NCBI RefSeq assembly: GCF_027257975.1
Contig: NZ_JANZKX010000001.1
Location: forward strand, 868,001 to 932,000
Length of the DNA stretch: 64,000 nucleotides
Source of the DNA: Pelomonas sp. BJYL3
Lineage (GTDB): Bacteria; Pseudomonadota; Gammaproteobacteria; Burkholderiales; Burkholderiaceae_C
Reading direction: 5' to 3'
Shown here: one piece after another, positions 1 through 52,001 of the stretch
How the letters are laid out: every line of letters starts with the position of its first letter
Numbering within the stretch: position 1 is the first letter of the stretch
Position numbers and translations under genes: made by a program
Notes under the pieces: model-generated
Database searches by the model: none
The model's input: the letters and a program-made list of their open reading frames with translations, nothing else
What the model was told of the DNA's origin: nothing

Positions 1-3000
1 GGGCCTACAGCGCGCTGTCCGACGTGCTGGCCTGCAGCGAGCTGCCGCGCCAGCAGGCCCTGTTCGACGCCATCTACGTCTTCGAGAACTACCCTGGCCA
101 GGCCGCCTTCCGCGACATGGTGGCGGCCCAGGGCCTGGCGGTGGACGATGTGCGCGCCGTCGAGGAGACCAGCTACGGCCTGGCCCTGATCGTGCTGCCG
201 GGCGAGTCCCTGCAGTTCACGCTCAGCCATGACCAGGCGCTCTTCAGCCGCGAGGCCGTCGCCAGCCTGGGGCAGCAGTTCCAGGGCCTGCTGGGCCGCC
301 TGGTGGCCCAGCCGCAGGCCGCGCTGGGCAGCATCGGCCTGTTGCCGGCGCCCTCGCCCGCCGCTCCGCCCGCCGCCGTGCCGGACACGGCCACGCTGCT
401 GGACCGGCTGGAGGCGCGCACCCGTCAACAGCCGCAAGACCTGGCCCTGCTGGCCCAGGGCCTGCGCTGCACCCATGGGCAACTGCTGGAGGCCTGCCAT
501 CAGGGCCTGGCCGCCTGGCAGGCCCAGGGCCTGCAGCCGGGCGACCGCGTCCTGCTGTGGCCCGACGAGCAGGCCCCCGTGCACAGCCTGGCCATGCTGC
601 TGTCCGGCCTGGGCGCCGGCCTGGACTGCCTGTGGCCGGCCGATGAGACAGTGGCCTGGCCGCCCCAGCTGACGCAAGACCTGACCCCACGTCTGGCCGT
701 CTGCGCGGGCGCGGCCCTGCCCGCCGCCGCGTGGGCCGCCTGCCCGCTGCGCCCCTGGACGGCCCTGCTGGCCGAGGGCCAGGCCCGTCCCGCTCCGGTG
801 CCGCCGGCGGCCGCCGCAGCCGGCGCCTGCAGCCTGCTGGACGCGCCCGCCGGGCCCGCATCGCCGGACCTGCGCCTGCTCCGCTACAGCCAGGCACAGC
901 TCGTCCAGGCCCTGGCTCCTGATGCCTCTGGCGCTCCGGCACTGGCCGCCACGCGCTGGCTCAGCGGGAGCGCCCTGTGGTCCGCCCTGCTCACCCTGCT
1001 GCAGGGCGGCACGCTGCACACGCTGGCCGCGTCCGAGCTTGACGCCCTCCTGCGGGGCCAGTCCACCGGGCCGCAGCCCTTCGACACCCTGCTGCTGAGC
1101 CCGCGCGAGGCCCGCCGGCTCGACCTGCTGCCCGAGCTGCCCGCCCTGCCGGCACCTCTGGCGCTCGCCCGCTGGACCGTAGACGCCGCCGCCCTCAGCC
1201 CGGTCGGCCAGCAACGCCTGCAGCGCCTCGCCCCCGGGGCACAGGTGCAGCGGCACTGGCATCTGCCCGCCCATTCCCTGCCCCATGCCCGCGCGCTGGG
1301 GGCCGCCCCCCACCTCGCCCTGGAGGCAGCGCCGGGCACCGTTCTGCAGCTACGGGACCTGCATCAGCAGGCGGCCGGGCCCTTCGCCCGGGGCCTGCTG
1401 CAGGTGGCCGGCACCAGCGTGCCCAGCCTGCTGCGCACGCAAGGCCAGAGCCCCGGCGCCATCGCCTGGCTGGCCGGTCAGCAGCCCCGGCTGCTGAGCG
1501 GCCTGCCCGCCTGGCTGGGTCCGCAAGGCCTGGCCCTGGAGACGCAGGCCCTGCTCGCCTCGCCCACGCGCGAGCCCCTGCCCGGCAGCGCGGCGCTCGA
1601 ACAGGCCCTGGCAGGCACGGCGGGTGTCCGCGAGCTGGCCTTGCTCGAAGGCGTGGACGACGCCGGGCGCTGGGCCTGCTGGCTGTTCGTCGTGCCCGAA
1701 GAGGGCCTGGCGGTGCCGGAGGCTCCGCTGCTGGCGGCAGCGGCCGCCCTGGGGCTGGGCCAGCCCCTGCTGCGCCCGCTGCCGGCCCTGCCGCGGCGGG
1801 AGGGCGCGATCGATCGCGCCGCCCTGCTGCAGCTCACGCAGGCGCCCGCCGAGGCGCAGGACCACGTCGCCCCGCGGGACGCGCTGGAGCAGCAGCTGCA
1901 TGATCTGTGGGCCGCCCTGCTCAAGAGGCCGCAGATCAGCGTGCATGCCAACTATTTCGACCTCGGCGGCCAGTCCCTGCTGGCCTCGGTCCTGCTGTTC
2001 CAGATCGAGGAAAAGCTGGGCGCACGCTTGGGGATGGAGCAGTTGATGGCGGGGCCCACCATCGCCGAGATGGCCGAGCGCCTGCGCAGCGGCGAGACGG
2101 CGCCCGAGCCGGCGCCCCTGGACCTGCCCGGCGAAGCCGTGCTGGAGGCCGCCATCCGCCCCGCCGCCCCCGCCCGCGACGGCGAGGCCCGCGAGATCCT
2201 GCTTACCGGTGCCACCGGCTTCCTGGGCGCCCACCTGCTGGCCGAGCTGCTGGCCAGCACCGAGGCGCGCGTGCACTGCCTGGTGCGAGCGCGAGACGCC
2301 CAGAGCGGCCACCAGCGGCTGGTCGAGGCCCTGCAGGCGCATGGCCTGTGGGACGAGCGCCACGCCGCGCGCATCGTGGCCCTGCCCGGCGACCTCGGCG
2401 CGCCGCAGCTGGGCCTGACGCCTGCGCTGCACGCGCAGATGGCCGAGCAGCTCGACGCCATCTATCACAACGGCGCGCTGGTGAATTTCGTCTACCCCTA
2501 CGCCATGCTCAAGCCGGCCAATGTGGACGCCACGGCCGACATCCTGCGCCTGGCCTGCGAGCACCACGCGAAGCCCGTGCACTACATCTCCACGGTGGGC
2601 GTGCTCAACCGCCGGGCCGAGGTGATCGGCGAAGACCTGGACGTCCCCTTCCACGAGCTGCTGCAAGGCGGCTACGAGCAGAGCAAGTGGGTGGCCGAGC
2701 AGCTGGTGGCCGAGGCCGGGCGCCGCGGCCTGCCGGTGTGCATCTACCGGCCCTCACGCATCGTGGGGCATTCCGTCACCGGCCGCATGAACACGGATGA
2801 CCTCTTCAGCCGCCTCATCAAGGGCATCGCCGTCTTCGGCAAGGCGCCGCAGGACGTGGGTTTCGACAACATCCTGCCCGTGGACCTGGCCGCGCGGCTG
2901 ATCGTGGAGGCCTCCCGGCATCCCGCCGCACCGGGCCATGCCGTGCATGTGCTGAACCCGGACTGGAACTCGCTGGACGAGGTGGTGGACCTCATCGAGG

Positions 3001-3329
3001 CCCGCGGCTTTGCGCTGGAGCGCCTGCCTTACGAGGACTGGCTGGCCCGGCTCAGCGCGCATGTGCGCCAGGACAGCAGCCATCCCCTGGCCATGCTGAT
3101 TCCCGTGCTGCACAAGCTCAATCCGGTGGCTGACCCGAGCGTGGGGGCCCGGCTGCCCATTGCCCTGGACCACCTGAAGGCCTGGGCGCCCCGGGCCCTC
3201 GCGCAAGGCCTGCGCCCGGCCGCCGAATGGCTGGACCGTTACTTCGAGCACTTCCAGCGCAGCGGCTTTCTTCCCTCCGCCGGCGGCGTGAAGCCGGCTA
3301 TTCAATCGGTTACTCAACAAGGAGGGTGA
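1..3329 (+). CDS. NRPS terminal module (partial): C-end, degenerate A-like domain, PCP, thioester reductase
   Basis: The reading frame is open from base 3, so the 5' part lies outside the window. The first ~110 residues are the end of a condensation domain (AIYVFENYP). A region of about 450 residues follows that keeps traces of adenylation motifs A1/A2 (LQPGDRVLLWP) but has no recognisable TGTTG-type A3 loop or YGPTE-type A5. Its A10-like motif reads LPRREGAIDRAAL, where the catalytic lysine (normally NGKVDR) is missing. A carrier domain has an intact phosphopantetheine serine in LGGQSLL (base ~1974). The last ~380 residues are a Lys2-type NAD(P)H reductase with GATGFLGAHLL (base ~2205), STVGV and the catalytic pair YEQSK. 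The module probably releases its product reductively as an aldehyde or alcohol. An adenylation domain acting in trans, or an unloaded carrier, is implied. Confidence 0.85.
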   Translation, partial: AYSALSDVLACSELPRQQALFDAIYVFENYPGQAAFRDMVAAQGLAVDDVRAVEETSYGLALIVLPGESLQFTLSHDQALFSREAVASLGQQFQGLLGRLVAQPQAALGSIGLLPAPSPAAPPAAVPDTATLLDRLEARTRQQPQDLALLAQGLRCTHGQLLEACHQGLAAWQAQGLQPGDRVLLWPDEQAPVHSLAMLLSGLGAGLDCLWPADETVAWPPQLTQDLTPRLAVCAGAALPAAAWAACPLRPWTALLAEGQARPAPVPPAAAAAGACSLLDAPAGPASPDLRLLRYSQAQLVQALAPDASGAPALAATRWLSGSALWSALLTLLQGGTLHTLAASELDALLRGQSTGPQPFDTLLLSPREARRLDLLPELPALPAPLALARWTVDAAALSPVGQQRLQRLAPGAQVQRHWHLPAHSLPHARALGAAPHLALEAAPGTVLQLRDLHQQAAGPFARGLLQVAGTSVPSLLRTQGQSPGAIAWLAGQQPRLLSGLPAWLGPQGLALETQALLASPTREPLPGSAALEQALAGTAGVRELALLEGVDDAGRWACWLFVVPEEGLAVPEAPLLAAAAALGLGQPLLRPLPALPRREGAIDRAALLQLTQAPAEAQDHVAPRDALEQQLHDLWAALLKRPQISVHANYFDLGGQSLLASVLLFQIEEKLGARLGMEQLMAGPTIAEMAERLRSGETAPEPAPLDLPGEAVLEAAIRPAAPARDGEAREILLTGATGFLGAHLLAELLASTEARVHCLVRARDAQSGHQRLVEALQAHGLWDERHAARIVALPGDLGAPQLGLTPALHAQMAEQLDAIYHNGALVNFVYPYAMLKPANVDATADILRLACEHHAKPVHYISTVGVLNRRAEVIGEDLDVPFHELLQGGYEQSKWVAEQLVAEAGRRGLPVCIYRPSRIVGHSVTGRMNTDDLFSRLIKGIAVFGKAPQDVGFDNILPVDLAARLIVEASRHPAAPGHAVHVLNPDWNSLDEVVDLIEARGFALERLPYEDWLARLSAHVRQDSSHPLAMLIPVLHKLNPVADPSVGARLPIALDHLKAWAPRALAQGLRPAAEWLDRYFEHFQRSGFLPSAGGVKPAIQSVTQQGG
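674..688 (-). repeat. REP-like repeat inside NRPS
   Basis: GCAAGACCTGACCCC is an exact copy of the window-wide GGGGTCAGGTCTTG repeat on the minus strand. It lies inside the degenerate adenylation-like region and is read as Q-D-L-T-P. Confidence 0.7.
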
Positions 3330-3687
3330 AATTTACCCAAACTGCGGGGGAAATTAGCATTGAGGCCCGTTTACAAACAGTGTCAGTCCTTACAGGTCTG
3401 AGCGTGTGTTCATGGGATATTTTCTCGCCGGAACGTCGCTTATCCTGTTCAACACTGAGGCTGCCATTGTTGCCATCAATGGTCAGCACAATTCGAGGCG
3501 ATGGGCGCAGGTTTCTATCGCCAAAGAGAGAACCGCATAGTTTTCTCTATATTTCGCCGAGACCCACTCCGCCATCCATGGGGCCCGGGTCATCGTGTTG
3601 ACACAGGAAAGCCTTCTGATCACAGCCGTGATGCAGCCCTGCCGCTGCCGGGCTGAGATAGGGAGTTATTTGTTCTAAGAGATTGGT
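3330..3687. other. Intergenic region between NRPS and LuxR gene
   Basis: This stretch of about 360 bases is visibly more AT-rich than its flanks and has no convincing gene. I looked for a CTGN10CAG-type lux box upstream of the LuxR gene and saw no clean one. GTTTACAAAC near 3369 is a short imperfect palindrome. It probably holds the promoter of the regulator gene. Confidence 0.5.
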
Positions 3688-4449
3688 ATGTCTAATATTC
3701 ACGCCACGACCGGAGAACTGGAAACCCTCTCGAAAATCATCAACGAAATCCGCCCTTCGGCAGATTTCATTGATCAGCTGGACCAATTCACCCAGCGCCT
3801 CAACGAGGTGATTCCATTCAAGCGCTGTCTGCTGCTCCACGAGCGCGAGGGCAAGTCCCTTTCCAGGGGTTTTGCTTATTACAACGGAGGACGGGACGAG
3901 GGGTTTGTCGGGCAATCCAAGCTGAGCAGTGCCATCGGTATCGAGGCCTACAGCGCGCGCTTTGCCAAATTCAACCAGATCGACCACGCCTTCCAGTGGG
4001 CCAGCCGGGATCACCTGGACCTGGGCGTGCCCGAGGGCTCCAATGAGCTGCTGAGCCGCATGCAGGGCCGCTCGGGCCTGGCCGCCAGCGTGCGCTCGGC
4101 CATTTCGGGCACGGATGACGTCCACACCTTCTGGCAGTTCGAATGCGACGAGGTCGGCGTGCAGCACCCGCTGCTGCTGAGCTTTGTGGCCTTCTACCTG
4201 CATTCCACGTTCACCCTGCACGCGGTGGACCACCAGGTGAAGGACGACTTCTTCGGCATCAACCTGACCAACAAGGAACGGGACGTCCTGCGTTGGGTGG
4301 TGGAGGGCAAGACCTCCTGGGAAATCGGTCGCATCCTCTACACCTCGGAGCGAACCGTGAAATTTCACCTGAAAAACGTTTACGCGAAACTCAATGTCTC
4401 GAATCGGGCCCAGGCCGTGGCCGTGGTCAACCGGCTGAGGCTCATTTGA
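3688..4449 (+). CDS. LuxR-family transcriptional regulator (solo)
   Basis: The protein has 253 residues. Residues ~188-245 form a typical GerE/LuxR helix-turn-helix (LTNKERDVLRWVVEGKTSWE, then TVKFHLKNVYAKL). The N-terminal ~170 residues have the length and placement of an autoinducer-binding domain, but I do not see the conserved WYxxY-type AHL pocket motif, so the ligand is open. No luxI-type synthase lies in the window. The gene follows the NRPS by about 360 bases on the same strand and is a plausible local regulator of it. The ATG at 3688 is preceded by only a weak ribosome-binding site (aagaga). Confidence 0.85.
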   Translation: MSNIHATTGELETLSKIINEIRPSADFIDQLDQFTQRLNEVIPFKRCLLLHEREGKSLSRGFAYYNGGRDEGFVGQSKLSSAIGIEAYSARFAKFNQIDHAFQWASRDHLDLGVPEGSNELLSRMQGRSGLAASVRSAISGTDDVHTFWQFECDEVGVQHPLLLSFVAFYLHSTFTLHAVDHQVKDDFFGINLTNKERDVLRWVVEGKTSWEIGRILYTSERTVKFHLKNVYAKLNVSNRAQAVAVVNRLRLI

Positions 4450-4480
4450 TTCAAGGGCGCATGCGCTACGCTGCGCCCCC

Positions 4481-5035
4481 ATGAGCAAGTCTTACGTCGA
4501 TGCCAATTACCGCTTCATCGCGGCCTACCAGGAAGTCAATGCCCGCGTGACGCAGCGCCAGCAGGTGCTGGCGCTGTACGTCAGCCTCGTCGTGAGTCTG
4601 CTGGCCGCCCTGGTCGCGCTGCGGCCCGCGCCGGGACAGACCGCGGCCCCCGTCGAGTGGCTGATCCTGGGCTTTCCCGTGGCCTCCCTGTGCCTGGCCT
4701 TCCTCAACGCCAAGGCCGAGCGCGCCATCACCAATCTGCGCCAGTTCCTGGCCCAGATGGAGCAGCTGGACGAGGCCCATCGGCGCCTGCCCAGCTACAA
4801 CACCGACCCCCACTGGTCCGCCGGGGCCAACCGCGCGCGCCGCTTCCACGACTACACCGCCGCCGTGCTCGCCACCTTCGGCAATGGCGCGGGCCTGGGC
4901 GCCGCGCTGGACATCTACGGCCAACGCCTGCAGGGCCAGGCCTGGTCCGTCGCCCTGGCGGTGGGCCTGGCCGCCCTGTCCCTGCTGGTGCTGGTGCTGA
5001 CGCCCCGGTGGAGCTACCGGCCCGGCGCGGCCTGA
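4481..5035 (+). CDS. Small integral membrane protein of unknown function
   Basis: The protein has 184 residues and matches no family I can name. Hydrophobic stretches near residues 28-48 and 58-78 and at the C-terminus (~153-178) suggest three or four membrane helices. A soluble, charged segment of about 45 residues lies between the second and third. It begins 31 bases after the LuxR stop on the same strand and could be cotranscribed with it. The cytoplasmic N-terminus is rich in Tyr, Arg and Gln. Confidence 0.65.
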   Translation: MSKSYVDANYRFIAAYQEVNARVTQRQQVLALYVSLVVSLLAALVALRPAPGQTAAPVEWLILGFPVASLCLAFLNAKAERAITNLRQFLAQMEQLDEAHRRLPSYNTDPHWSAGANRARRFHDYTAAVLATFGNGAGLGAALDIYGQRLQGQAWSVALAVGLAALSLLVLVLTPRWSYRPGAA

Positions 5036-5167
5036 GCCAGCTGGCCCGCGGCTCGCCTTGGGCCGCATCGCATTGCAGCGGTGCCTTCACATGCTTTGCG
5101 TTTTTTCTTGGAGGACAGGGCCGGCCCGCCTCGCAAAAATGAAAAGCGCATAACGAGAAGGCACTCC

Positions 5168-6115
5168 ATGAATTTCCAGCAACTCCGATCCGTCCGCGAA
5201 GCCCAGCGCCGTGGCTTCAATCTCACCGAGGTGGCCGCCGCGCTGCACACCTCCCAGCCGGGCGTCAGCCGCCAGATCCGGGAGCTGGAGGACGAGCTGG
5301 GCATCGAAATCTTCATGCGCGCCGGCAAGCGCCTCACGGGCCTCACCGACCCGGGCCGCAATGTGCTGCCCATCGTCGAGCGCCTGCTGCAGGAGGCCGA
5401 GAACCTGCGCCGCGCCGGGGACGACTTCGCCCGCGCCGGCCGCGGCGTACTGCGCATCGCCGCCACACACAGCCAGGCGCGCTACGCCCTGCCCCCGGTG
5501 GTGCGCGACTTCCGCCTCAGCCATCCCGAGGTGGAGCTGACCCTGCAGCAGGGCTCGCCGCAGCAGGTCGCCCGGCTGCTGCTGGACGGCGAGGCCGACA
5601 TCGGCATCGCCACCGAGGCCCTGGCCCAGTACGAGGAGCTGGTCGCCCTGCCCTGCTACCGCTGGACCCACACCGTGGTCACGCCGCTCAACCATCCGCT
5701 GGCCGAGGCCCAGCGCCGCGGCGAGACGCTCACGCTGCAGCGCCTGGCCGACTACCCCATCGTGACCTACGAGACCGGCTACACCGGCCGCTCCCACATC
5801 GACCAGGCCTTCAAGGCCGCGGGCCTGGCCCCGCACGTGGTGCTGGCCGCCATGGACGCAGACGTGATCAAGACCTACGTGGAGCTGGGCCTGGGTGTGG
5901 GCATCGTCGCGGCCATCGCCTATGACGACGAGCGCGACCGCCACCTGGCCGCCCACGACGCCCGCCATCTCTTCGCCGACAACATGACCCGCCTGGCCCT
6001 GCGGCGCGACGCCTACCTGCGCGACTACGCCTACGCCTTCATCGAGACCTTCGCGCCGCCCTGGACCCGCGAGGCCGTGCAGGGTGTCCGTGAGGGTCAG
6101 GTCTTGCCCGCCTGA
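5168..6115 (+). CDS. CysB/SsuR-type LysR-family regulator
   Basis: The protein has 315 residues. The ATG at 5168 is chosen over an upstream in-frame start because it has a GAGAAGG ribosome-binding site and gives the family N-terminus MNFQQLRSVREA. The winged helix-turn-helix spans ~1-60 (TSQPGVSRQIRELEDELGIE), followed by a LysR substrate domain. The N-terminus is that of the CysB subfamily, which controls sulfate assimilation and, in Burkholderia, sulfonate use (SsuR). The next genes, a TOBE molbindin and an RBBP9-like hydrolase, are to my knowledge often found with ssu loci in Burkholderiales, but no ssu transporter or monooxygenase is present here. The C-terminus carries a REP-like repeat (read as G-Q-V-L-P). 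Confidence 0.85.
   Translation: MNFQQLRSVREAQRRGFNLTEVAAALHTSQPGVSRQIRELEDELGIEIFMRAGKRLTGLTDPGRNVLPIVERLLQEAENLRRAGDDFARAGRGVLRIAATHSQARYALPPVVRDFRLSHPEVELTLQQGSPQQVARLLLDGEADIGIATEALAQYEELVALPCYRWTHTVVTPLNHPLAEAQRRGETLTLQRLADYPIVTYETGYTGRSHIDQAFKAAGLAPHVVLAAMDADVIKTYVELGLGVGIVAAIAYDDERDRHLAAHDARHLFADNMTRLALRRDAYLRDYAYAFIETFAPPWTREAVQGVREGQVLPA
6094..6107 (+). repeat. REP-like repeat at the 3' end of the CysB-type gene
   Basis: GGGTCAGGTCTTGC is an exact core copy lying within the last codons of the regulator, just before its stop. Confidence 0.7.
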
Positions 6116-6277
6116 GCGGCCGCTGCCTTCGGCGCGTCACGCATGAGCTGCTGCGCTTTGCTTCCTTCCGCCCTTGCGCGGTGCTGCCTAAGCTGGAGCC
6201 CATGTCCTGCCGTGATTCCCGGGCCCATCGCCCCACGGCAGCCGCTCACCGCCCATCATCGCCACACAGGAGCTTCC

Positions 6278-6496
6278 ATGAGCATCACCGCCATCAATGT
6301 GCGCAACCAGTTCCGCGGCACCGTCAAGGAAATCATCGAGGGGCCGGTCGTGTCCGAGGTGGATGTGCTGACGCCCGGCGGACTGATCGTCACCTCCGTC
6401 ATCACCACGCGCTCGATCAAGGACCTCGACCTGGCTGTGGGCCGGGAAGTGGTGGCCCTGGTCAAGTCGACCGAGGTCTCGATCGCCACGCTCTGA
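6278..6496 (+). CDS. TOBE-domain molbindin-like protein
   Basis: This 72-residue protein is a single TOBE (Mop) domain: ISARNQF-like start (ITAINVRNQFRG), a central GPVVSEV turn and the end REVVALVKSTEVSI. Such stand-alone domains bind molybdate or other oxyanions, or have unknown roles in sulfur-starvation loci. The ATG at 6278 has the ribosome-binding site CAGGAG and gives a domain of normal length; longer in-frame starts would add an unrelated tail. It sits between the CysB-type regulator and the hydrolase gene. Confidence 0.85.
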   Translation: MSITAINVRNQFRGTVKEIIEGPVVSEVDVLTPGGLIVTSVITTRSIKDLDLAVGREVVALVKSTEVSIATL

Positions 6497-15558: not shown

Positions 15559-16749
<1,191 letters not shown>

Positions 16750-18089: not shown

Positions 18090-18644
18090 TCACTCCTCTC
18101 TCAGCCGCTGCAGCAGCGGCAACCACTCCCGCGCCAGCAGCTCGGCCGTCAGCGGCCCGGCATGCCTGGCGCGCACGCGGCCTGTCTTGTCGATCACGAA
18201 GGACTCCGGCACGCCGTAGACGCCCCAGTCGAGCCCGGTGCGCCCCTTCGCATCCAGCAGCACCTGGGCGAAGGGATTGCCCTGGTCCTGCAGCCAGGCG
18301 GCGCCGGCCGAGTCCTTGTAGTTCAGCCCCACCAGCGGCCAGCCCTCGCGCTGCAGACGCAGCAGCTGGCCGTGCTCCTGCCGGCAGGGATCGCACCAGG
18401 AGGCCCAGACATTGAGCACCCAGACCCGGCCCGCCAGCGCCTGGGCGTCGAAGCGCCGGGCCGGATCGTCCAGGCGGGGCAGGTCCAGCGCTGGCGCAGG
18501 CCGGCCGATCAGGGGCGATGGCAGGGGCGCGTCCGCGGCGCGGGGCTGGCGCAGGCCCAGGGCCAGCAGGGTGATCAGCGCCACCAGGGCCAGCAGCGGC
18601 ACCCAGAGGCGGCGCGGCGGGGGAGATTCGGGCAACGCATTCAT
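18090..18644 (-). CDS. ccmG: Thiol:disulfide oxidoreductase CcmG/DsbE
   Basis: The protein has 184 residues, with a membrane anchor near 13-31 and a thioredoxin fold. The active site is WASWCDPCRQE and the cis-proline loop is GVYGVPESF. CcmG passes reductant from CcmA-H partners to CcmH and apocytochrome. It overlaps the ccmF stop by four bases and ends three bases before the ccmH start. Confidence 0.95.
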   Translation of the reverse strand: MNALPESPPPRRLWVPLLALVALITLLALGLRQPRAADAPLPSPLIGRPAPALDLPRLDDPARRFDAQALAGRVWVLNVWASWCDPCRQEHGQLLRLQREGWPLVGLNYKDSAGAAWLQDQGNPFAQVLLDAKGRTGLDWGVYGVPESFVIDKTGRVRARHAGPLTAELLAREWLPLLQRLREE

Positions 18645-20638
18645 TCGCAGGCTCCGATCGGCCGGGACCAGCGAGCGGGGTCAGGTCTTGCCGTCTCCAC
18701 GACCTCACGGCGCTGCCGGCGTGGCGCACCGGCCCACAGCGCGCCCAGGCCCATCAGCGCGGCGCCCAGCCACAGGGCCGTCATGCCGGGCTTGACCTGC
18801 AGGCGCAGGCCCCAGGCGCCCTGCGGCTGGGCCTCGGCGAGCGAGAGGTAGAGGTCGCGCCACAGGCCCCGCTCGATGGCGGCCTCAGTCATGGGCATGG
18901 ACTGCACCGGATAGAAGCGCTTCTCAGGCCGCAGCTGCGCAATCCGCCGGCCCTCGGACCACACCTCGAAGCGCGCCTGCGCCGCGATGTAGTTGGGCCC
19001 CTCCACGCGCTGCAGGTCCAGGAAGCGGAACTCCAGCCCCGCGAGGGTGGCGCTCTCGCCGGGCCGCAGGGCCAGGTCCCGGCTCTGCTCCAGGCTCTTC
19101 ACCGCACCAACGCCCAGCACGAAGACCGCCAGGCCGACGTGCGCCAGCCACTGGCCCCACAAGGCGCGCGGCGTGCGCTGCCAGCGGGCGGGCCAGGGGC
19201 GATCCGCCTGCGTCTGCCAGTGGGCCCAGGCCTGCGCGCCGGTGGCCAGCAGCAGCCACAGCGCCAGGGCCAGGCTCAGGCTGGCCAGCAGCGAGTAGCG
19301 CAGGGCCAGGCCCAGCAAGGCACCGCCCAGCAGCGCGCCCAGCAGCAGGCCGCGCACCCGCCGCCACAGGGCCCGCCCCTCGAAGTGGCCCCAGGGCACG
19401 AAGGGCGCCAGGCCGGCCAGGGCCAGCAGCGGCAGGGCCAGCGGCACGAAGACGGCCTCGAAGTAAGGCGCGCCCACGCTGATGCGCTCGCCGAGCATCA
19501 CGTCCAGCGCCAGCGGATACAGCGTGCCCAGCAGCACCGTGGCCGCGCTGGCGCACAGGAAGACGTTGTTGAGCAGCAGCAGGCTCTCGCGCGAGGCCGG
19601 CGCCACGGGATCGCCGCGGCCCAGGGCCGGCGCGCGCCAGGCGTAGAGCAGCAGAGGGACGCCCACGGCCAGGCCCAGCAGGAGCAGCAGCACGCTGCCG
19701 CGCATCGGGTCGCTGGCGAAGGCGTGGACCGAGCTCAGCACGCCGGAGCGCACGAGGAAGGTGCCCAGCAGCGAGAGCGCGAAGCCCAGCAGCGCCAGCA
19801 GCAGGGTCCAGTGCCGGAAGCGGTCCCGCTTGAGGGCCACGGCCAGCGAGTGCACCAGGGCCGCGCCGATCAGCCAGGGCATGAAGCTGGCGTTCTCCAC
19901 CGCATCCCAGAACCACCAGCCGCCCCAGCCCAGCTCGTAGTAGGCCCAGAAGCTGCCCAGCAGGATGCCGGCGCTCAGGCAGGCCCAGGCGCGCAGGGCC
20001 CAGGGCCGCAGACGCTGGGCCTCCGCACGGCCGAAACGGCCCTGCCACAGCGCGGCCACCGCCTGCGCGAAGGCCACGGCAAAGCCCACATAGCCCATGT
20101 ACAGCAGCGGCGGATGGAAGACCAGGCCCGGGTCCTGCAGCAGCGGGTTCAGGTCCCGGCCGTCGGCGGGCGCGGGCCAGTGACGCTCGAAGGGGTTGGA
20201 GCTGAAGAGCAGAAAGGCCAGGAAGCCCGTGGCGATGGCGCCCAGCACGGCCAGGGCCCGGGCCTCGAAGGCACGGGCCTCGCCCTGCGCCCCCTCATGC
20301 CGCCCCGACCACAGCAAGGCCGCCTGCCACAGGCCCAGCATCCACACCCACAGCAGCAGGGAGCCCTCGTGGCCGCCCCAGCTGCCCGCCAGGCGGTAGG
20401 CCAGAGGCAGGCGGGTGTTGGCATGCGCGGCCACGTAGCGCAGGGAGAAGTCGTTCTGCGCAAAGGCCCACAGCAGGGCAGCAAACGCCGCCGTGAGCGC
20501 CGCCACCTGTGCGCCGGCCAGCGTGCGCACCGGCAGCCAGGGCGCGGACGCCCGGCCGCGGCCCAGCACCGACAAGGTCTGCGCCAGGGCCAGCCACAGC
20601 GCGGCATGCAGGGCCCAGTGGCCCCATTCGATGATCAT
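18641..20638 (-). CDS. ccmF: Heme lyase CcmF
   Basis: The protein has 665 residues with about fifteen predicted membrane helices. It has the heme-handling WWD motif of the family ([18 protein letters not shown]). Together with CcmH and CcmI it attaches heme to the CXXCH motif. It is placed normally, overlapping ccmE by four bases. Its last ~15 codons contain a REP-like repeat at 18677-18691, so the extreme C-terminus may differ from relatives. Confidence 0.95.
18677..18691 (+). repeat. REP-like repeat in the 3' end of ccmF
   Basis: GGGGTCAGGTCTTGC is an exact copy in the last codons of ccmF. It is read there as A-R-P-D-P, in a different frame from the copies read as G-Q-V-L. Confidence 0.7.
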
Positions 20639-23569: not shown

Positions 23570-24055
23570 ATGACTGACAAATCCTTGCTGCAGCAGCAGG
23601 TGCTGGAACGGCTCGCCGACGACCTGCTGCAAGCCGAGCAGGCAGCACGCGTGGCCCATGAAACGGCGACGCATGAAGAGAACATCGCCGAGAACAAGTA
23701 CGACACCCTGGGCCTCGAGGCCGCCTACCTGGCCACCGGCCAGGCGCGCCGCGCCGAAGCCATCCGCCAGGCGATGAGCCATTGGCGCCAGTTCCGCCCG
23801 CGCCCCTACGACCCGAGCCAGGGCATCCAGCTCGGCGCGCTGGTCTGCCTGTCCGACGCCGAGGGCGAGCAGCAACTGCTCTTTCTCGGCCCGGACGGCG
23901 GCAGCATGAAGCTGCCAATCGGCGATCAGCTCGTGCAGGTCATCAGCAGCGAAGCCCCCCTGTGCAGGGCCATGCTGGGGAAGTGCGAGGGGGATGAGGT
24001 GACGCTGAGGGTGGCTTCCCTCCCGCAGCAGTGGGAGGTGATGTGGGCCCGGTAG
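23570..24055 (+). CDS. GreA/GreB C-terminal-domain protein
   Basis: The protein has 161 residues. The N-terminal ~70 are helical and charged, and the C-terminal part (FLGPDGGSMKL, VISSEAPLCRAMLGKCEGDE) matches the GreA/GreB FKBP-like domain that docks on RNA polymerase. It may act as a transcription factor of the Gre type or as an anti-Gre factor. The N-terminal half is not a clear match to the Gre coiled coil. It is divergent from ccmA. Confidence 0.75.
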   Translation: MTDKSLLQQQVLERLADDLLQAEQAARVAHETATHEENIAENKYDTLGLEAAYLATGQARRAEAIRQAMSHWRQFRPRPYDPSQGIQLGALVCLSDAEGEQQLLFLGPDGGSMKLPIGDQLVQVISSEAPLCRAMLGKCEGDEVTLRVASLPQQWEVMWAR

Positions 24056-24158: not shown

Positions 24159-24269
24159 GTTCAACGTTTGAGTTCAGCGGCTTGCGACAGAGTGGCGAAG
24201 CCGGTCAAGAATGAAATGAAGGCCGGCGTAGGCACGCCGGCGCAAGTCCGGTTGAACGAGGGGCTAGGC
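24159..24269 (-). repeat. attC-like recombination site downstream of an orphan gene
   Basis: On the minus strand, directly after the stop of the gene at 24271-24792, the boxes come in attC order: R''-like GCCTAGC, five bases, L'' GTTCAACCGGACTTGCG, a central region, L' CGCAAGCCGCTGAAC, six bases TCAAAC, and R' GTTGAAC (a GTTRRRY match). The L boxes pair with two unpaired bases on one side, as the extrahelical bases of attC do. R'' has one mismatch to RYYYAAC. The length of 111 bases is within the attC range. No integrase is in the window. Confidence 0.6.
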
Positions 24270-24270
24270 G

Positions 24271-24792
24271 TCAATGTCCTTGCCACTCTTGCCAACGACT
24301 CCCTGTCGGATGTGACGCAATGCCTCTGCCAAGGGCCACATCGTTCCAGCGCTCAACTGGTTCGGCATGCTCTTCGCCATGCTTCAGGGCTTCTGGCTTG
24401 CCGATGAGATAGATACCTTGCTCCGGGCCCCGACCGAAGAGTTGAGTGAAGCTGTAGTGCTGCTTCATTCCAGGAACCCATACTGTGACCGTAAGTACGT
24501 CCGTGCCAGTTCCATCTGATTGTCGAGAGATCCCTTCCCTTCCAAAGGCCCACCAGACTTTTGATCGCTTTGCCTCAGCGAGGCTTGCCCAGCCCTTTGC
24601 AACGGCTTCTTCCTGAGTTTCTGACTCAAAGTCCAGTACCTGCCGGCCTGTTGCGTCAGTGATAACTGCAAACGGGCAGATGAGTTCTCCTTCGCGGTTC
24701 GCATCAGCAATGGCTGCGCAGTGCATGAGCACGAAGCCAGCATACTCAATGGCATCGTCGGGGAGAGAAGAGCGGAACAGCGAACCGAGCAT
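24271..24792 (-). CDS. Orphan hypothetical protein in an attC-like cassette
   Basis: The protein has 173 residues and I do not recognise the family. It is acidic, soluble and without a signal peptide. It includes CPFAVITDATGRQVLDFES and QLFGRGPEQGIYLIGKPEAL, which look like a compact mixed alpha/beta fold. It is less GC-rich than the ccm genes. An attC-like palindrome starts at its stop, and a GTTAGGC core (24805-24811, minus) lies 12 bases before its start, as expected for an integron-type cassette. The immunity-protein-like size fits cassette or orphan defence genes, but no function can be claimed. Confidence 0.6.
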   Translation of the reverse strand: MLGSLFRSSLPDDAIEYAGFVLMHCAAIADANREGELICPFAVITDATGRQVLDFESETQEEAVAKGWASLAEAKRSKVWWAFGREGISRQSDGTGTDVLTVTVWVPGMKQHYSFTQLFGRGPEQGIYLIGKPEALKHGEEHAEPVERWNDVALGRGIASHPTGSRWQEWQGH

Positions 24793-24804
24793 GGTGTGTG
24801 TGAT

Positions 24805-24811
24805 GCCTAAC
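24805..24811 (-). other. GTTRRRY core upstream of the orphan gene
   Basis: GCCTAAC on the plus strand, GTTAGGC on the minus strand, is a perfect match to the R' core at which integron recombination occurs. It sits just upstream of the orphan start, the normal cassette position. No complete attC is visible behind it, so it may be a remnant. Confidence 0.4.
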
Positions 24812-24908
24812 GACCAATTTCAGGGGTGCCAGCTTGGCATGGCCGAATCGTGCAGTGATGGAGTCGCCCCCACAAAGACGAGGGTCACGCAAGGACGAGC
24901 GCAAGGAC

Positions 24909-24930
24909 GAGGATCAGGCCTTGAGTTTTA
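24909..24930 (+). repeat. REP-like repeat, right-end type
   Basis: GAGGATCAGGCCTTGAGTTT and two further bases form a variant of GGGGTCAGGTCTTGAGTCTA. It lies upstream of the orphan gene at 24271-24792, as similar copies do for the two next orphan genes. Confidence 0.55.
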
Positions 24931-24977
24931 CAGGGCTAGGTAGGGCCCAAGGCCCCACCCCCAAGCCCCGCCGCCAG

Positions 24978-25011
24978 CCCTGAGTAAAAACGCCCAATGT
25001 CCGCTGCACTT
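24978..25011 (+). pseudogene. 5' fragment of a second copy of the 97-residue membrane-protein gene
   Basis: Thirty-four bases match 26944-26977 with about three differences. They include the leader and the first codons (M-S-A-A-L, ATG at 24997) of the gene at 26963. The match ends where a REP-like sequence begins, and the frame then stops. The matching 3' fragment is at 26030-26080. Confidence 0.7.
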
Positions 25012-25031
25012 AATACTTGATGCCTGACCCC
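25011..25031 (-). repeat. REP-like repeat, left-end type
   Basis: TAATACTTGATGCCTGACCC plus one C lies exactly where the homology to the 97-residue gene ends. It is inverted relative to the copy at 26010-26029. Confidence 0.65.
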
Positions 25032-25175
25032 GCCCCTGCGCCCCTGCTTGACCCCGCCCCTGCTGATTCCGCTAAAGAATCAGCAGTTGAGCAGGTGTTG
25101 ACGACGCCTGCGGTTGCCGACTCGACAGCCCGTTGAAGCCTCGGGCCAACAAGCCCATACGTTAGCGTGGGGCTG

Positions 25176-25255
25176 GTCTTGCCTGCCCTCTGATCCTGAG
25201 GCCCCTTGTTGAACGGATCGAAGTGGTGGGGATTCAGAACTTAATGCCTGACCCC
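25176..25255. repeat. 80-base repeat (BIME-like), copy 1
   Basis: This copy matches 26114-26193 at roughly 82% over the same length. It runs from a right-end-like GTCTTGCC to a left-end ACTTAATGCCTGACCCC, so it is probably a REP pair with a conserved spacer (CTGAGGCCCCTTGTTGA). Confidence 0.7.
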
Positions 25256-25400
25256 GATCCGCGCGTGCCCCCGATCCGCGCGATCCGCGATCCGCTCCGG
25301 ATCAGCGCGCCCTGGCAGCCTCGGCTCCATCGGGGCCTTCAAGCGCACGACAGGAAATTCAAGGCGGGACGCGTCCTGCCTTTCTTCCACATGATGGCGA

Positions 25401-25991
25401 TCAACTGGTGGCTGGCCTTGCATCGACCTGCACAAGCCTGAGTTGTTGGACGATTTCTTCCAAGGACTGGCTGTACAGATGACCGTCTTCAAGCTCCAGA
25501 GAGTCCTCTGGCCTTTCCTCCCGGGGCATCTCAAACCTCCGCCAATTGACGACCCCCTCCCCGACTGGTTCGATGCCGTAGGGCAGGCCGGTTTGGCGGT
25601 TGCTGAACAGCCGCACTCCGCCACAGGGGAAGACCCCTGACTCAACGAGCTCGTAGAGATACTGACCCGACAGAAAAAGCGTGCCGCCGTTGGTCGCGAG
25701 AAGGAAGTGCATGCCTTCATCCTCCATCTCTTCGACTTCAACGACGTCAGACACCCGGTAATCCGCCGTCTTCAGGTGCCCGCTCCACAACGCACTTTGC
25801 ATCGGCTCCTGTCGCACAGCCAGGGACGACTTTGGCCACAGGTGCAGAAGGAGCGCTGGCAGCAGGATGTAGGCCGAACCGAAGGACACAAGGCCGAGCA
25901 GCATCGGGTCCTTGACGATGTTGCTCGAGTAGCCAGCGATCGGGATGAGCAGGAACGTACAGATACCTGCGATGAAGATGAGACGCAGCAT
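25401..25991 (-). CDS. Orphan hypothetical membrane protein
   Basis: The protein has 196 residues of unknown family. Two N-terminal membrane helices (~2-19 and ~30-52) are followed by an acidic cytoplasmic domain of about 140 residues with a beta-rich core (HFLLATNGGTLFLSGQYLYE). GC content is lower than in the surrounding genome. The gene is alone in a REP-bounded segment, in the same orientation as the two neighbouring orphans. Two helices plus a small soluble domain would fit an immunity or stress protein, but nothing in the sequence decides this. Confidence 0.6.
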   Translation of the reverse strand: MLRLIFIAGICTFLLIPIAGYSSNIVKDPMLLGLVSFGSAYILLPALLLHLWPKSSLAVRQEPMQSALWSGHLKTADYRVSDVVEVEEMEDEGMHFLLATNGGTLFLSGQYLYELVESGVFPCGGVRLFSNRQTGLPYGIEPVGEGVVNWRRFEMPREERPEDSLELEDGHLYSQSLEEIVQQLRLVQVDARPATS

Positions 25992-26009
25992 GAGAGACCG
26001 TGTGGGCCT

Positions 26010-26029
26010 GGGGCCAGGCCTTGAGTCTA
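26010..26029 (+). repeat. REP-like repeat, right-end type
   Basis: GGGGCCAGGCCTTGAGTCTA ends exactly where the 3' fragment of the disrupted gene copy begins. Confidence 0.65.
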
Positions 26030-26080
26030 CTGACCTTCGGACTGGCCCGGACGCTCGGCATGGACTTGAGCCTCCCGTGA
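26030..26080 (+). pseudogene. 3' fragment of a second copy of the 97-residue membrane-protein gene
   Basis: Seventeen codons including the stop encode L-T-F-G-L-A-R-T-L-G-M-D-L-S-L-P, matching the C-terminus of the gene at 26963-27256 with a single Ser/Thr change. Nucleotide similarity of about 89% continues past the stop to ~26094. Confidence 0.75.
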
Positions 26081-26113
26081 AGGCCGGGGAACTCGCAGGG
26101 GCACCAGGGTCAA

Positions 26114-26193
26114 GTCTTGCCTGCCCTCCGACCCTGAGGCCCCTTGTTGAGCGGATCGAGATGTTGGGGACTTGAATCTTGATGCCTGACCTC
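26114..26193. repeat. 80-base repeat (BIME-like), copy 2
   Basis: This is the partner of 25176-25255 and ends in GATGCCTGACCTC. It lies downstream of the orphan gene at 26232-26771. Confidence 0.7.
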
Positions 26194-26231
26194 GCCTGCG
26201 GCTCCCGTAGCCGGTCGGCCTGAACGAGGGC

Positions 26232-26771
26232 TCAGGACGCATTGAGCACCCTTTGAGTTTGCTGGGAAGCTTGGGGCATCGTTGAGCTTCGTAGCTCGCG
26301 CTGAAGTGCTGTGCGTGCTTCGTGGGTCAGCGGTGACGATGGCGACAGCAGACGCTCTTGGCTCTCCATCGAGGCAAACCAGACAGCGCCTTCCTCCAGC
26401 ACGCACCGAAGGATCTCTTCCGCACAAGCGTCCAAGCTCGCTGGATCTGCGCCGAACGAGAAGTCGTAGCGCCTGAGACTGTGATCGTTGGAGTCCCGCA
26501 TCTCGTCCGACGACGGCCCATTCAAGTGCGCTCCGGGAAAGTCGTCGGTCCGCACTCGGACACCAAATTGGACCCTGAAGGAAGCTTCGAACGAGAACTT
26601 GTGGAGATGAACGAACTCGATCACCAGCGGCTTTGGCCGCGTGTAGAAGCTCGTCCTGGTGCGCTCGAATCCGAGGGGCTTCAACTTGTTGGCAAGAAGC
26701 CGTGCGACCTTTTGTGCATTGCGTGACTCCAGCTTCTTCTCGGGCGAACCCGGCGCGGCGTAGGGTGGCAT
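26232..26771 (-). CDS. Orphan DUF4304-like hypothetical protein
   Basis: The protein has 179 residues, is soluble and has no signal peptide. The layout LANKLKPLGFERTRTSFYTR followed by VIEFVHLHKFSFEASFRVQF resembles DUF4304-type proteins (LKPLGFkrkgrtFyR), which are often found near toxin-immunity loci; I hold this loosely. It lies between a REP pair (26114-26193) and the REP hairpin at 26867-26914. GCTCAAC (26789-26795) 18 bases before the start is a GTTRRRY match on the minus strand, as for the orphan at 24271, but no full attC is clear. Confidence 0.6.
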   Translation of the reverse strand: MPPYAAPGSPEKKLESRNAQKVARLLANKLKPLGFERTRTSFYTRPKPLVIEFVHLHKFSFEASFRVQFGVRVRTDDFPGAHLNGPSSDEMRDSNDHSLRRYDFSFGADPASLDACAEEILRCVLEEGAVWFASMESQERLLSPSSPLTHEARTALQRELRSSTMPQASQQTQRVLNAS

Positions 26772-26866
26772 GTGGTGTCGGCTATGTGGCTCAACGAATG
26801 AAAGGGACTGCCCAGTACCGAACCAGCCACGTCGCCCTGAAGCGAGAACGGGCTCAAAAAGGGACG

Positions 26867-26914
26867 GGGGTCAGGTCTTGAGTCTAAAGGGATTGGACCT
26901 CAAGCCCTGACCCA
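26867..26914. repeat. REP pair with hairpin potential
   Basis: GGGGTCAGGTCTTGAGTCTA (26867-26886) faces CAAGCCCTGACCCA (26901-26914). The two halves are inverted and close, a BIME-like arrangement able to form a long stem with few mismatches. Confidence 0.7.
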
Positions 26915-26962
26915 GTCCTACGGTGACCCTGCCCCACCGCACCCCCTGAGTCAAAACGCCCA

Positions 26963-27256
26963 ATGTCCGCCGCGCTTGTTTTCAATCAAGATGGACGGCG
27001 TCGTGCAACAGCCAGGAATGCTCAGGTGGATTGGGTTCTCGTCGTCTTCGTTCTATTCAAGGGCCTGGTCTTCGTCACCGGCATGGTGTTCGCCATCAAG
27101 TGGCATTACGACCGCGAGAAGATGACGGTGGACCGGCACGCGCTGCTCGGCATGGGCGCCAAGGTCCTCGCGGTGTTCGTCCTGTTGCTTCTCGTCTTGC
27201 TGACCCTGACCTTCGGGCTGGCCAGGTCGCTCGGCATGGACTTGAGCCTCCCTTGA
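26963..27256 (+). CDS. Small two-helix membrane protein, intact copy
   Basis: The protein has 97 residues. Helices near 23-45 and 64-88 flank a short basic loop (KWHYDREKMTVDRHALLGMG). The family is unknown. The importance of this gene is as reference: its first and last parts recur at 24978-25011 and 26030-26080 around a REP-bounded segment. The ATG has no strong ribosome-binding site, and expression is uncertain. Confidence 0.5.
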   Translation: MSAALVFNQDGRRRATARNAQVDWVLVVFVLFKGLVFVTGMVFAIKWHYDREKMTVDRHALLGMGAKVLAVFVLLLLVLLTLTFGLARSLGMDLSLP

Positions 27257-27341
27257 AGGCCGTGGCACTCATGCGCATGCAGCGGGCGACGGGCGGCTGT
27301 GCCCATGCCGGACGGCCCACCCGGCCCATCGCCCCCAATGC

Positions 27342-27382: not shown

Positions 27383-27859
27383 TCACTCCTTGTTCTTGAA
27401 GTCGTCGTGGCAGGCCTTGCAGGTCTTGCCCAGCTTGCCGAACTGCTCCTTGGTCTTGGCCTGATCGCCCAGGAGGGCGACCTGGGCCAGCTCGTTGGCC
27501 TCCTTGCTGAAGGCGCTGGCGTACTCGCCGACCTTGGAGCCTGGCTTGAAGAGCTCGGGCTTGACGGTGGTGTCGTGCCAGCCCTTGCCGGTCTCGGTGC
27601 CGGGCGCGAAGAGCGCGCCCAGGCCGCTGTTGGCCAGCGCGGCGATGGTGTTGGCGGCCTTGATGACCTCCTCCTTGTTGTAGGTGCCCTCGACATTGGC
27701 CTTGATGCGGCCGTTGTTCCAGGCGATGACCTGATACGCCGACTGGCGCCATTTGATCAGCTGCTCGGGCTTGGGGCCCTGCTGGGCCTGGGCGCCGCTG
27801 CTCACGGCCAGGCTGGCGATGGTCAGGGCAAGTGCGGCGAGGATTGAGTTGCGTTTCAT
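27383..27859 (-). CDS. Cytochrome c' (c-type, C-terminal heme)
   Basis: The protein has 158 residues. The start at 27859 (MKRNSIL) gives a proper signal peptide ending at AQAQQGPK. The single heme site TCKACHDDFKNK is near the C-terminus, as in four-helix cytochrome c'. The family binds NO/CO or carries electrons in the periplasm. It is last in a minus-strand run of periplasmic redox genes. Confidence 0.9.
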   Translation of the reverse strand: MKRNSILAALALTIASLAVSSGAQAQQGPKPEQLIKWRQSAYQVIAWNNGRIKANVEGTYNKEEVIKAANTIAALANSGLGALFAPGTETGKGWHDTTVKPELFKPGSKVGEYASAFSKEANELAQVALLGDQAKTKEQFGKLGKTCKACHDDFKNKE

Positions 27860-27894
27860 GAAGCGCTTTCTTGGGTGGAATGGAGGAAGGGATG

Positions 27895-28902
27895 TCATTT
27901 GGCGCGGCTGGCCACGCCCGGCGTCAGCACGGCCAGCTGCCAGGCGGCGCCGCGGCCGACGACGTAGAGCTGGCGCTTGTCCGGCCCGGCAAAGGCCAGG
28001 TTCTGCGGCGCGCGCGGCAGCGTGATCGTGCCCAGGGCCTCGCCCTTGGGATTGAAGACCTGCACACCCACGCTGCTGGCCACGTAGAGCCGGCCCTCGG
28101 CGTCGACGGCCAGGCCGTCGGCCCCGCTGCTGGTGCTGCCGTTCTCCAGGGTACGGAAGCCGGCCAGGCGGGCGAAGTTGCGGCGCGGGCCCAGGCGGCC
28201 GTCCGCGGCGATGTCATAGGCCAGCACCCATTCGCCGGCGGTGTCGGCCACGTAGAGCGTGCGCTCGTCGGGGCTCAGCTGGATGCCGTTGGGGCGGGTG
28301 ATGTCCGCGGCCAGGCGCTCCAGCACGCCGCCGGCGCGGATGCGGTAGACCGCCGGCTTCGCGTAGTCCACGGCCGCAGCAGCGCCCTGGCGCTGGCCGG
28401 GGGCGGAGCCGGAGTCCGTGAAGTACACGTTGCCGCGGCTGTCCAGCACGAGGTCGTTGGGGCGGTCGAAGGGCTTGCCCTCCCAGCTGTCGGCCAGCGT
28501 GCGCGCCCTGTCGGCGGGGTAGACGACGCCCACGCGCGCCTGGCTCACCTGCACGGCGAAGAGCTCGCCGTCGCGGCTCCAGCCGAGGCCGTTGGCGCCA
28601 TTGCTCTGGGTGAGGAAGGGCTGGGTGCTGCCGTCCGGCAGGATCTGCGTGATGCGCTCGGCCTGCGTCTCGGTGAAGACGAAGCGCCCATCCGGCAGGC
28701 CCAGCGGTCCTTCGGTGCCCTTGAAGCCGTCCTTGAGGTAGCGCACCGGCGTGCCGGCGGCCACCACGCCGGCGATGGCGGGCGTCTGGGTGGGCGTGTC
28801 GGCGGGAGGCTGGGCCGGGGTCTGCGCTGCGGCGGCACCGCCCAGCGTCAGGGCCACCGCGGCGATCAGGCTGCGGTCCATCCAGGGAATCAGGTGAGAC
28901 AT
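27895..28902 (-). CDS. Secreted SMP-30/gluconolactonase-like beta-propeller
   Basis: The protein has 335 residues with a signal peptide (start 28902, MSHLIPWMDRSL). The blades carry EGPLGLPDGRFVFTE, FDRPNDLVLDSRGNVYFTDS and RPNGIQLSPDERTLYVADT, the metal-binding pattern of SMP-30/gluconolactonases (E, N, N-D). These are periplasmic lactonases of varied substrate. Its place amid cytochromes and DUF1501/DUF1549 genes suggests a role in oxidising a sugar or other lactone-forming substrate. Confidence 0.85.
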   Translation of the reverse strand: MSHLIPWMDRSLIAAVALTLGGAAAAQTPAQPPADTPTQTPAIAGVVAAGTPVRYLKDGFKGTEGPLGLPDGRFVFTETQAERITQILPDGSTQPFLTQSNGANGLGWSRDGELFAVQVSQARVGVVYPADRARTLADSWEGKPFDRPNDLVLDSRGNVYFTDSGSAPGQRQGAAAAVDYAKPAVYRIRAGGVLERLAADITRPNGIQLSPDERTLYVADTAGEWVLAYDIAADGRLGPRRNFARLAGFRTLENGSTSSGADGLAVDAEGRLYVASSVGVQVFNPKGEALGTITLPRAPQNLAFAGPDKRQLYVVGRGAAWQLAVLTPGVASRAK

Positions 28903-51806: not shown

Positions 51807-51843
51807 GGGTCAGGTTTGAACTTAACGTTTAAGGCCTGACCCT
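51807..51843. repeat. REP pair left of the transposase remnant
   Basis: GGGTCAGGTTTGAA faces TTTAAGGCCTGACCC across CTTAACG, making a near-perfect long hairpin typical of REP units in BIMEs. Confidence 0.75.
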
Positions 51844-51848
51844 GGGGA

Positions 51849-52001
51849 TGCTTGGCCGAGTCGGCTACGCGCGAGGAGGCGCTCTGGCTCGCGCATGCAA
51901 AGTCCGTCATGACCATGACCCAGATCGGACGCGAACTAGGACTGACGACGGCGAGGGTGAGCCCGCTGATCAAAAGGCATCAGGGTGGGATGAGGCCTTG
52001 A
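51849..52001 (+). pseudogene. C-terminal remnant of a REP-associated tyrosine transposase (RAYT)
   Basis: Fifty codons encode a fragment with TREEALWLAHAKSVMTMTQ, IGRELGLTTARVSPLIKRHQ and a stop at 51999. A short basic helix-turn-helix of this kind, often ending VSRLI-R, is found at the C-terminus of RAYT proteins of betaproteobacteria. The upstream catalytic part (HUH, Tyr) is gone. REP pairs lie on both sides. The match is from memory, not from a search. Confidence 0.55.

Follow-up and report, generated by a model that had tools for sequence, protein, structure and literature searches.

The locus considered here lies in a window of 64,000 nucleotides (positions 868001-932000 of contig 1, C1) of the genome of Pelomonas sp. 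BJYL3, which comprises 5.24 Mb in 28 contigs. Between a gene for a GreA-like protein and a gene for cytochrome c' it holds orfA, orfB and orfC, three orphans encoded on the minus strand, together with a small gene on the plus strand, encoding a membrane protein of 97 amino acids (aa), and a broken second copy of the latter. A first-pass annotation, made from the letters of the window, had described a segment with an orphan gene (orfB), bounded by repetitive extragenic palindromic (REP) sequences, which splits the second copy of the small gene, and had proposed that single genes are exchanged here like cassettes by means of REPs rather than of a classical insertion sequence (IS). All elements and junctions that it placed at the locus were found there; orfA, which has the same orientation as the other orphans, a pair of 88-nt repeats and integron attC sequences had gone unmentioned in it. 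The features are as follows, genes being given as open reading frames (ORFs) and scores of half-sites being those of a position-specific scoring matrix (PSSM).

23570-24055: GreA-like gene, one border of the orphan region (ORF, protein family scan)
24159-24269, minus: complete attC belonging to the orfA cassette, with GCCTAGC as its left and GTTGAAC as its right box (covariance model and regular expression)
24165-24810, minus: putative orfA gene cassette, 646 bp, from G^TTAGGC to G^TTGAAC
24271-24792, minus: orfA, orphan protein of 173 aa
24805-24829, minus: attC-like right half-site with GTTAGGC end, 12 nt before the orfA ATG (PSSM 13.74)
24910-24926, plus: degenerate REP (motif match)
24965-25011, plus: leader and first codons of the broken copy, 47 nt, 85% identical to 26931-26977
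25015-25031, minus: REP end, left junction of the orfB block (motif match)
25169-25256: 88-nt repeat, copy 1, ending in a REP-like end, 82% identical to copy 2
25401-25991, minus: orfB, orphan of 196 aa, probable membrane protein
26010-26026, plus: REP end, right junction of the orfB block (motif match)
26030-26094, plus: end of the broken copy, with its final 17 codons, stop codon included, and its 3' flank, 65 nt, 91% identical to 27206-27270
26107-26194: 88-nt repeat, copy 2, adjoining the point where the orfC attC breaks off
26214-26237, minus: probable left half of a truncated attC at the orfC stop codon (PSSM 10.6; covariance model 10.9 bits)
26232-26771, minus: orfC, 179 aa, weak similarity to DUF4304 (E 0.009, below cut-off)
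26867-26914: inverted REP pair, REPIN-like hairpin
26963-27256, plus: intact small membrane-protein gene, 97 aa (ORF; relatives in family genomes)
27383-27898: cytochrome c' gene, other border of the orphan region (ORF, protein family scan)

At the 3' end of orfA we found a foldable attC with complementary boxes, as a gene cassette of an integron carries. The nested boxes GTTCAAC and GTTGAAC of this site are complementary at seven of seven positions, and its fold as single-stranded DNA gave a z score of -3.18. We searched with a covariance model built from 26 attC sites of a single other genome (G199), none of them from the BJYL3 genome, and in the window plus seven further stretches of the own genome (190,705 bases) the orfA attC obtained 33.6 bits with an expectation value (E) of 3.5e-6, fifth of the twelve matches up to E 10, while in the scan of the own genome it stood at E 9.6e-5. 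In a comparison set, 43 other loci (36 of small-gene relatives and 7 around GreA-like genes; 334,462 bases) yielded one match (E 0.93) at E up to 1. A mixed alignment of 13 attC sites (A3) was not used as a model, two of its rows being apparently misaligned. Furthermore, we slid profiles of the attC halves, made from 13 sites with the window left out, over both strands of the window. With the left profile, the orfA attC ranked first by its left end (22.3; best of 50 shuffled windows 22.1), and with the right profile it ranked first by its right end (24.6), the half-site at 24805-24829 being second (13.7). The latter score was reached somewhere in 15 of the 50 shuffled windows and is compatible with chance, therefore this half-site has weight only through its position before the orfA start, where its GTTAGGC (24805-24811) has the form G^TTRRRY of a cassette start directly upstream of orfA. 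Judged by its sequence, orfA is a complete integron gene cassette. A second pair of attC boxes given by the regular expression inside orfA (24351-24447, 6/7 pairing) found no support in the covariance model, and the orfA protein had no match in Pfam, NCBIfam, PHROGs, PADLOC or PDB.

For orfC, whose protein likewise had no match in PDB, no complete attC was found at the 3' end, where at most the left half of a site remains; the score of this half-site has a chance of 4.9e-5 per position. The best relative of orfC among 399 genomes of the family belongs to G199 (45% identity) and lies between attC sites of an integron array, in which genes are separated by attC sites of 78 nt; the 35 kb fetched from this genome contained 48 attC matches of at least 88 bits, 26 of which are the model's own sequences. 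Thus orfC has a relative that is found as a cassette, and by inspection the stop codon lies within the left attC box in both genes. Cassette status was not seen for two weaker relatives (loci L102 and L103). We conclude that orfC is probably an integron cassette from whose attC the 3' half has disappeared. Like cassettes of a single array, orfA and orfC have the same orientation, both being on the minus strand.

Up to E 1, the window gave no match to IntI, and two proteins encoded elsewhere in the genome scored above the cut-off of the integrase family TIGR02249, one on contig 27 (C27:91720-92664, 472 bits) and one on contig 1 (C1:642538-643449, 359 bits). Five further matches to this family in the genome were partial or weak and stayed below the cut-off; since such sub-cut-off matches also occurred in all 14 control genomes, only the two proteins above it were counted as IntI. 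After the integrase of contig 27 lie five attC matches (locus L117), one of them with E 0.084 only; two more (one with E 0.091 only) are beside an IntI fragment at L120, and one is beside another IntI fragment at L121. The scan of the own genome gave at least four attC sites, two in the contig 27 integron, one at a locus of contig 12 and one in the window. The IntI fragments with their one or two attC matches (L120:8549-9642 and L121:7127-8339) are probably broken integron copies. L117 also harbours, near attC matches, two ORFs of 360 aa with the same translation (1164-2246 and 5258-6340), which we take to resemble transposases of the IS110/IS1111 family, and a further ORF (3588-4853) which is presumably transposase-like as well; insertion sequences that target attC are known in the IS110/IS1111 family.

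The junctions of the orfB block are marked by REPs. As the first-pass annotation had stated, ACTTGATGCCTGACCCC (25015-25031) and GGGGCCAGGCCTTGAGT (26010-26026) represent a single motif in opposite orientations and lie exactly at the two junctions; similar ends stand around orfC (26179-26193 and 26867-26883). The motif is a REP that abounds in this genome, its core, GGGGTCAGGYMTT, being present in 271 exact copies genome-wide vs none for a control of reversed pattern; with up to three mismatches the window contained 17 matches vs 0.12 expected. REPs are dense at the locus, as 7 of the 24 window matches to the 15-nt form (up to two mismatches) fall in 24910-26914, and the inverted pair beyond orfC forms a hairpin (fold of 26860-26920: -17.7 kcal/mol, z -4.6). 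The genome has two genes with a Y1 transposase domain above cut-off which resemble REP-associated tyrosine transposases (RAYTs); against the NCBI model of that name they scored 79.9 and 51.5 bits, neither reaching its cut-off of 80, and a REP lies some 80 bp away from the domain match of the second. Elsewhere in the window, a C-terminal remnant of a REP-associated transposase was noticed at 51822-51983 (43.6% identical to the RAYT at 1025 kb of C1, E 2e-8), with REP copies at 51829 and 51987.

The exact REP ends around orfB, the similar ends around orfC and the two RAYT-like genes, one with an adjacent REP, speak for a course in which segments bounded by inverted REPs were moved as units by a REP-associated transposase and replaced resident DNA, as the first-pass annotation had proposed. 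We nevertheless regard this as very improbable, as it does not predict the attC sequence at orfA and probably at orfC. We also looked for pairs of REPs in the same inverted order (minus, then plus; 300-2000 bp apart, up to one mismatch) in 29 stretches of the own genome, some of them overlapping and most of them chosen for REPs or integron parts, so that the sample is not random. Outside the locus, these stretches gave only two pairs. One, at L047, contained no ORF that passed the filter; the other, in the window, encloses a gene of the DsbE family (18090-18644; 149 bits, cut-off 123), although the REP match on its right falls within the following ORF (18641-20638) and may be a chance or coding match. 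Since a REP-like pair thus also brackets an ordinary DsbE-family gene, bracketing alone is no proof of movement as a unit. At L047, the other REP-rich orphan locus, nine of ten REP matches have the same direction. For the locus between the GreA-like and cytochrome c' genes, no empty or alternative allele was seen among compared genomes, which had no syntenic locus able to show one. In view of the attC at orfA, the 271 copies of the core and the pair around the DsbE-type gene, REP-mediated exchange is not supported as a general mechanism: we reject it for orfA, consider it unlikely for orfC and leave it open for orfB. What stands of the earlier proposal is the cassette-style gain of single genes by something other than a classical IS, which fits orfA and probably orfC, the agent being likely an integron and not REPs.

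L047 itself (2990-6414, corresponding to 455-458 kb of C1) is a second locus in which orphan genes alternate with REPs. It carries repeats of about 136 nt, two copies of which are 96% alike and a third was seen by eye, and these resemble the end of an IS110-type element. The covariance model gave no attC there, and its best right half-sites scored 15.1 (at 16299) and 11.8 (at 4527) vs 7.8-10.6 in three other own stretches, within the range of shuffled windows. No REP-like match was found within 1.5 kb of the attC sites in L117, L120 and L121.

The intact small gene and its split second copy, which the first-pass annotation had recognized, were confirmed by repeat alignment, and both repeated parts are longer than it had noted (24965-25011 vs 26931-26977 for the leader, 26030-26094 vs 27206-27270 for the tail). 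Between the fragments lie, as it had counted, 1,018 bases (25012-26029), and the missing middle, given by it as about 230 bases, is 228 bp (26978-27205). The score of the leader-region alignment (24930-25011 vs 26887-26977) was reached by none of 500 shuffles, which confirms the leader repeat. Between the two copies the tails show 6 differences in 65 nt; against Roseateles subflavus the intact copy differs at 7 and the broken copy at 6 of these 65 nt (30 of 294 positions over the whole intact gene). The divergence within the genome is therefore similar to that between species and the duplication is old; it would thus date from about the time at which the species parted, unless the broken copy stems from another lineage. 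The signature of a classical transposon or IS was not found at the locus, as none of the scanned locus proteins belongs to a transposase family and the target is 228 bp short and not duplicated.

For the small gene and orfB only, these observations fit an old tandem duplication followed by ordinary decay, in which the middle of one copy was deleted and illegitimate recombination, involving no specific mechanism, brought in orfB and the REPs. The species-like divergence of the copies, the loss of 228 bp, which is no clean insertion, and the 271 REP cores available in the genome speak for such a course, and it is compatible with an integron origin of orfA and orfC; ordinary decay does not explain the exact REP ends at both junctions, and we give it slightly less than an even chance. 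With REP ends placed exactly at its junctions, the rearrangement of orfB and the broken gene may have involved REPs. No GTTRRRY core is present between the REP and the orfB start codon. The 88-nt repeat has only two copies near full length in the genome, both at this locus; they have REP-like ends and lie 3' of an orphan gene each.

The arrangement could also be read as a segment of about 24830-26194, comprising the broken gene, orfB and the REPs, which was inserted into a single attC that once joined orfC to orfA. The left half-site at 26214-26237 and the right half-site at 24805-24829 are indeed in the right order and orientation, and by inspection TTCAGG of the left half pairs with CCTGAA of the right half. 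However, this pairing is only 6 bp, about four of which are attC consensus, and the outer boxes pair poorly on inspection; the same order would be expected if the halves stem from different attC sites, and neither half is significant apart from its position. We hold such an insertion to be unlikely. It is still less probable, in our view, that the small gene, its upstream REPIN and a recombination core were duplicated as one unit, creating two landing sites that took up orfA and orfC at the same relative position, with REP hairpins as joints between attC remnants and with integron and REPs shuffling genes jointly. We do not assert a duplication of the spacer from REP to core beside orfA and orfC, as its alignment barely beat chance (20 of 500 shuffles were at least as good).

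The two orphans searched for in the family are rare: with the own genome counted, orfB had matches in 2 and orfC in 4 of the 399 family genomes, vs 68 for the small gene, and searches of plasmids with orfA, orfB and orfC gave no match. A GreA-like protein was found in 10 of 60 genomes (own included), and we compared the surroundings of its gene in seven of them, leaving out the own genome, one partial match and one very weak match. Except for one weak ccmA-like match of 32% identity, none of 11 other genes of the locus was found within the 16-17 kb around the GreA-like gene in these seven relatives; there is no syntenic relative among them, hence no empty site or alternative allele. Around the small gene, conserved DNA extends from about 26947 to 27286/27309 in loci L048 and L049, whereas in L050 it reaches 27261. 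The neighbourhoods of these loci differ, and the leader TGAGTCAAAACG before the start of the gene is conserved along with it. The small gene itself may be mobile, or may be regulated through this conserved leader. Within 5 kb, the window had no neighbour besides the small gene in common with six further small-gene loci, ORFs being chosen by a crude composition rule; these seven loci gave three pairs of similar proteins, none involving the window, with 29%, 30% and, between L097 and L098, 45% identity over 497 residues, the last pair at differing distance and orientation.

Combined together, we consider the locus a decayed, integron-derived cassette cluster, with a probability of about 0.75. 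Several observations weigh against this. With filters off and an input of 3.3 kb, the orfA attC was matched over a shorter span with 16.0 bits (E 0.0047). The orfC half-site is weak, having E 0.13 in 3.3 kb and the eighth place in the left-half ranking of the window, and the GTTGAGC core before orfC (26789-26795) scores a non-significant 1.6. For orfB the covariance model gave no significant attC match. No attC was found near the second IntI (L118 and L119 gave a single match, E 6.8), and the scan of the own genome, in which 150 of 6,957 candidates were scored, missed the 46-bit site of L121, thus it is not exhaustive. The locus has one complete attC, below the two sites required for a cluster of attC sites lacking integron-integrases (CALIN).

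Directly observed were the orfA attC, the IntI genes, further attC sites, the number of REPs in the genome and how far the copies of the small gene have diverged. An integrase encoded by this genome or by an ancestral one, presumably IntI, would have placed at least one cassette, orfA, by site-specific recombination at the GTT core, and orfC would have arrived by the same route and afterwards lost the 3' half of its attC. An array next to the small gene would thus have received orfA and orfC, and the second, old copy of this gene, which lies between the two, has degenerated. REP and REPIN elements, presumably spread by REP-associated transposases, would have accumulated late in this apparently non-essential DNA, where they now stand at the junctions, as would the 88-nt elements with REP-like ends, one of which adjoins the truncated attC. 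orfB, between two REPs, may have replaced the middle of the broken copy or come after its loss. We infer that the events took this order.

Stray integron cassettes with partly eroded attC sites can thus mimic a new REP-based system of gene exchange, and the inverted REP pair around a DsbE-type gene is a counter-example to inferring exchange from REP bracketing. These results also add to a Roseateles-like genome an integron on the chromosome, along with dispersed cassettes and fragments of the integrase; a full-text literature search for Roseateles, integron and gene cassettes found no paper.

Among known systems, the locus is similar to the gene cassettes of integrons, to CALINs and to sedentary chromosomal integrons in its single orphan genes of one orientation, in the attC with conserved boxes on the 3' side, in the GTTRRRY core before the start codon and in having an integrase gene at another place in the genome. 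According to the excerpted text of PMC12444791, about half of the Xanthomonas genomes studied contain CALINs remote from the integrase. A CALIN comprises two or more attC sites with no integrase close by. The present locus differs in having one complete attC and two half-sites, with REPs and the 88-nt repeat where attC would be expected, and a gene on the opposite strand which is no cassette is interleaved with the orphans. Loot et al., cited in PMC12444791, reportedly described in 2024 the insertion of integron cassettes at non-classical genomic (attG) sites. A cassette outside an integron, at a GTT core, with IntI encoded elsewhere, is akin to such insertion, except that it is known here without an empty target site displaying a non-att insertion point. 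With the REPIN/RAYT (TnpA-REP) system the locus shares a short repeat whose copies number in the hundreds, a hairpin made by two inverted copies, and RAYT-like genes, one of them REP-adjacent. In the excerpts of PMC8266576 the spread of REPs is described as spread of the REPs themselves, and neither 'passenger' nor 'flanked' appears in the main text of that paper; the motif found here differs in that it lacks the GTAG head which is most common according to the same excerpts.

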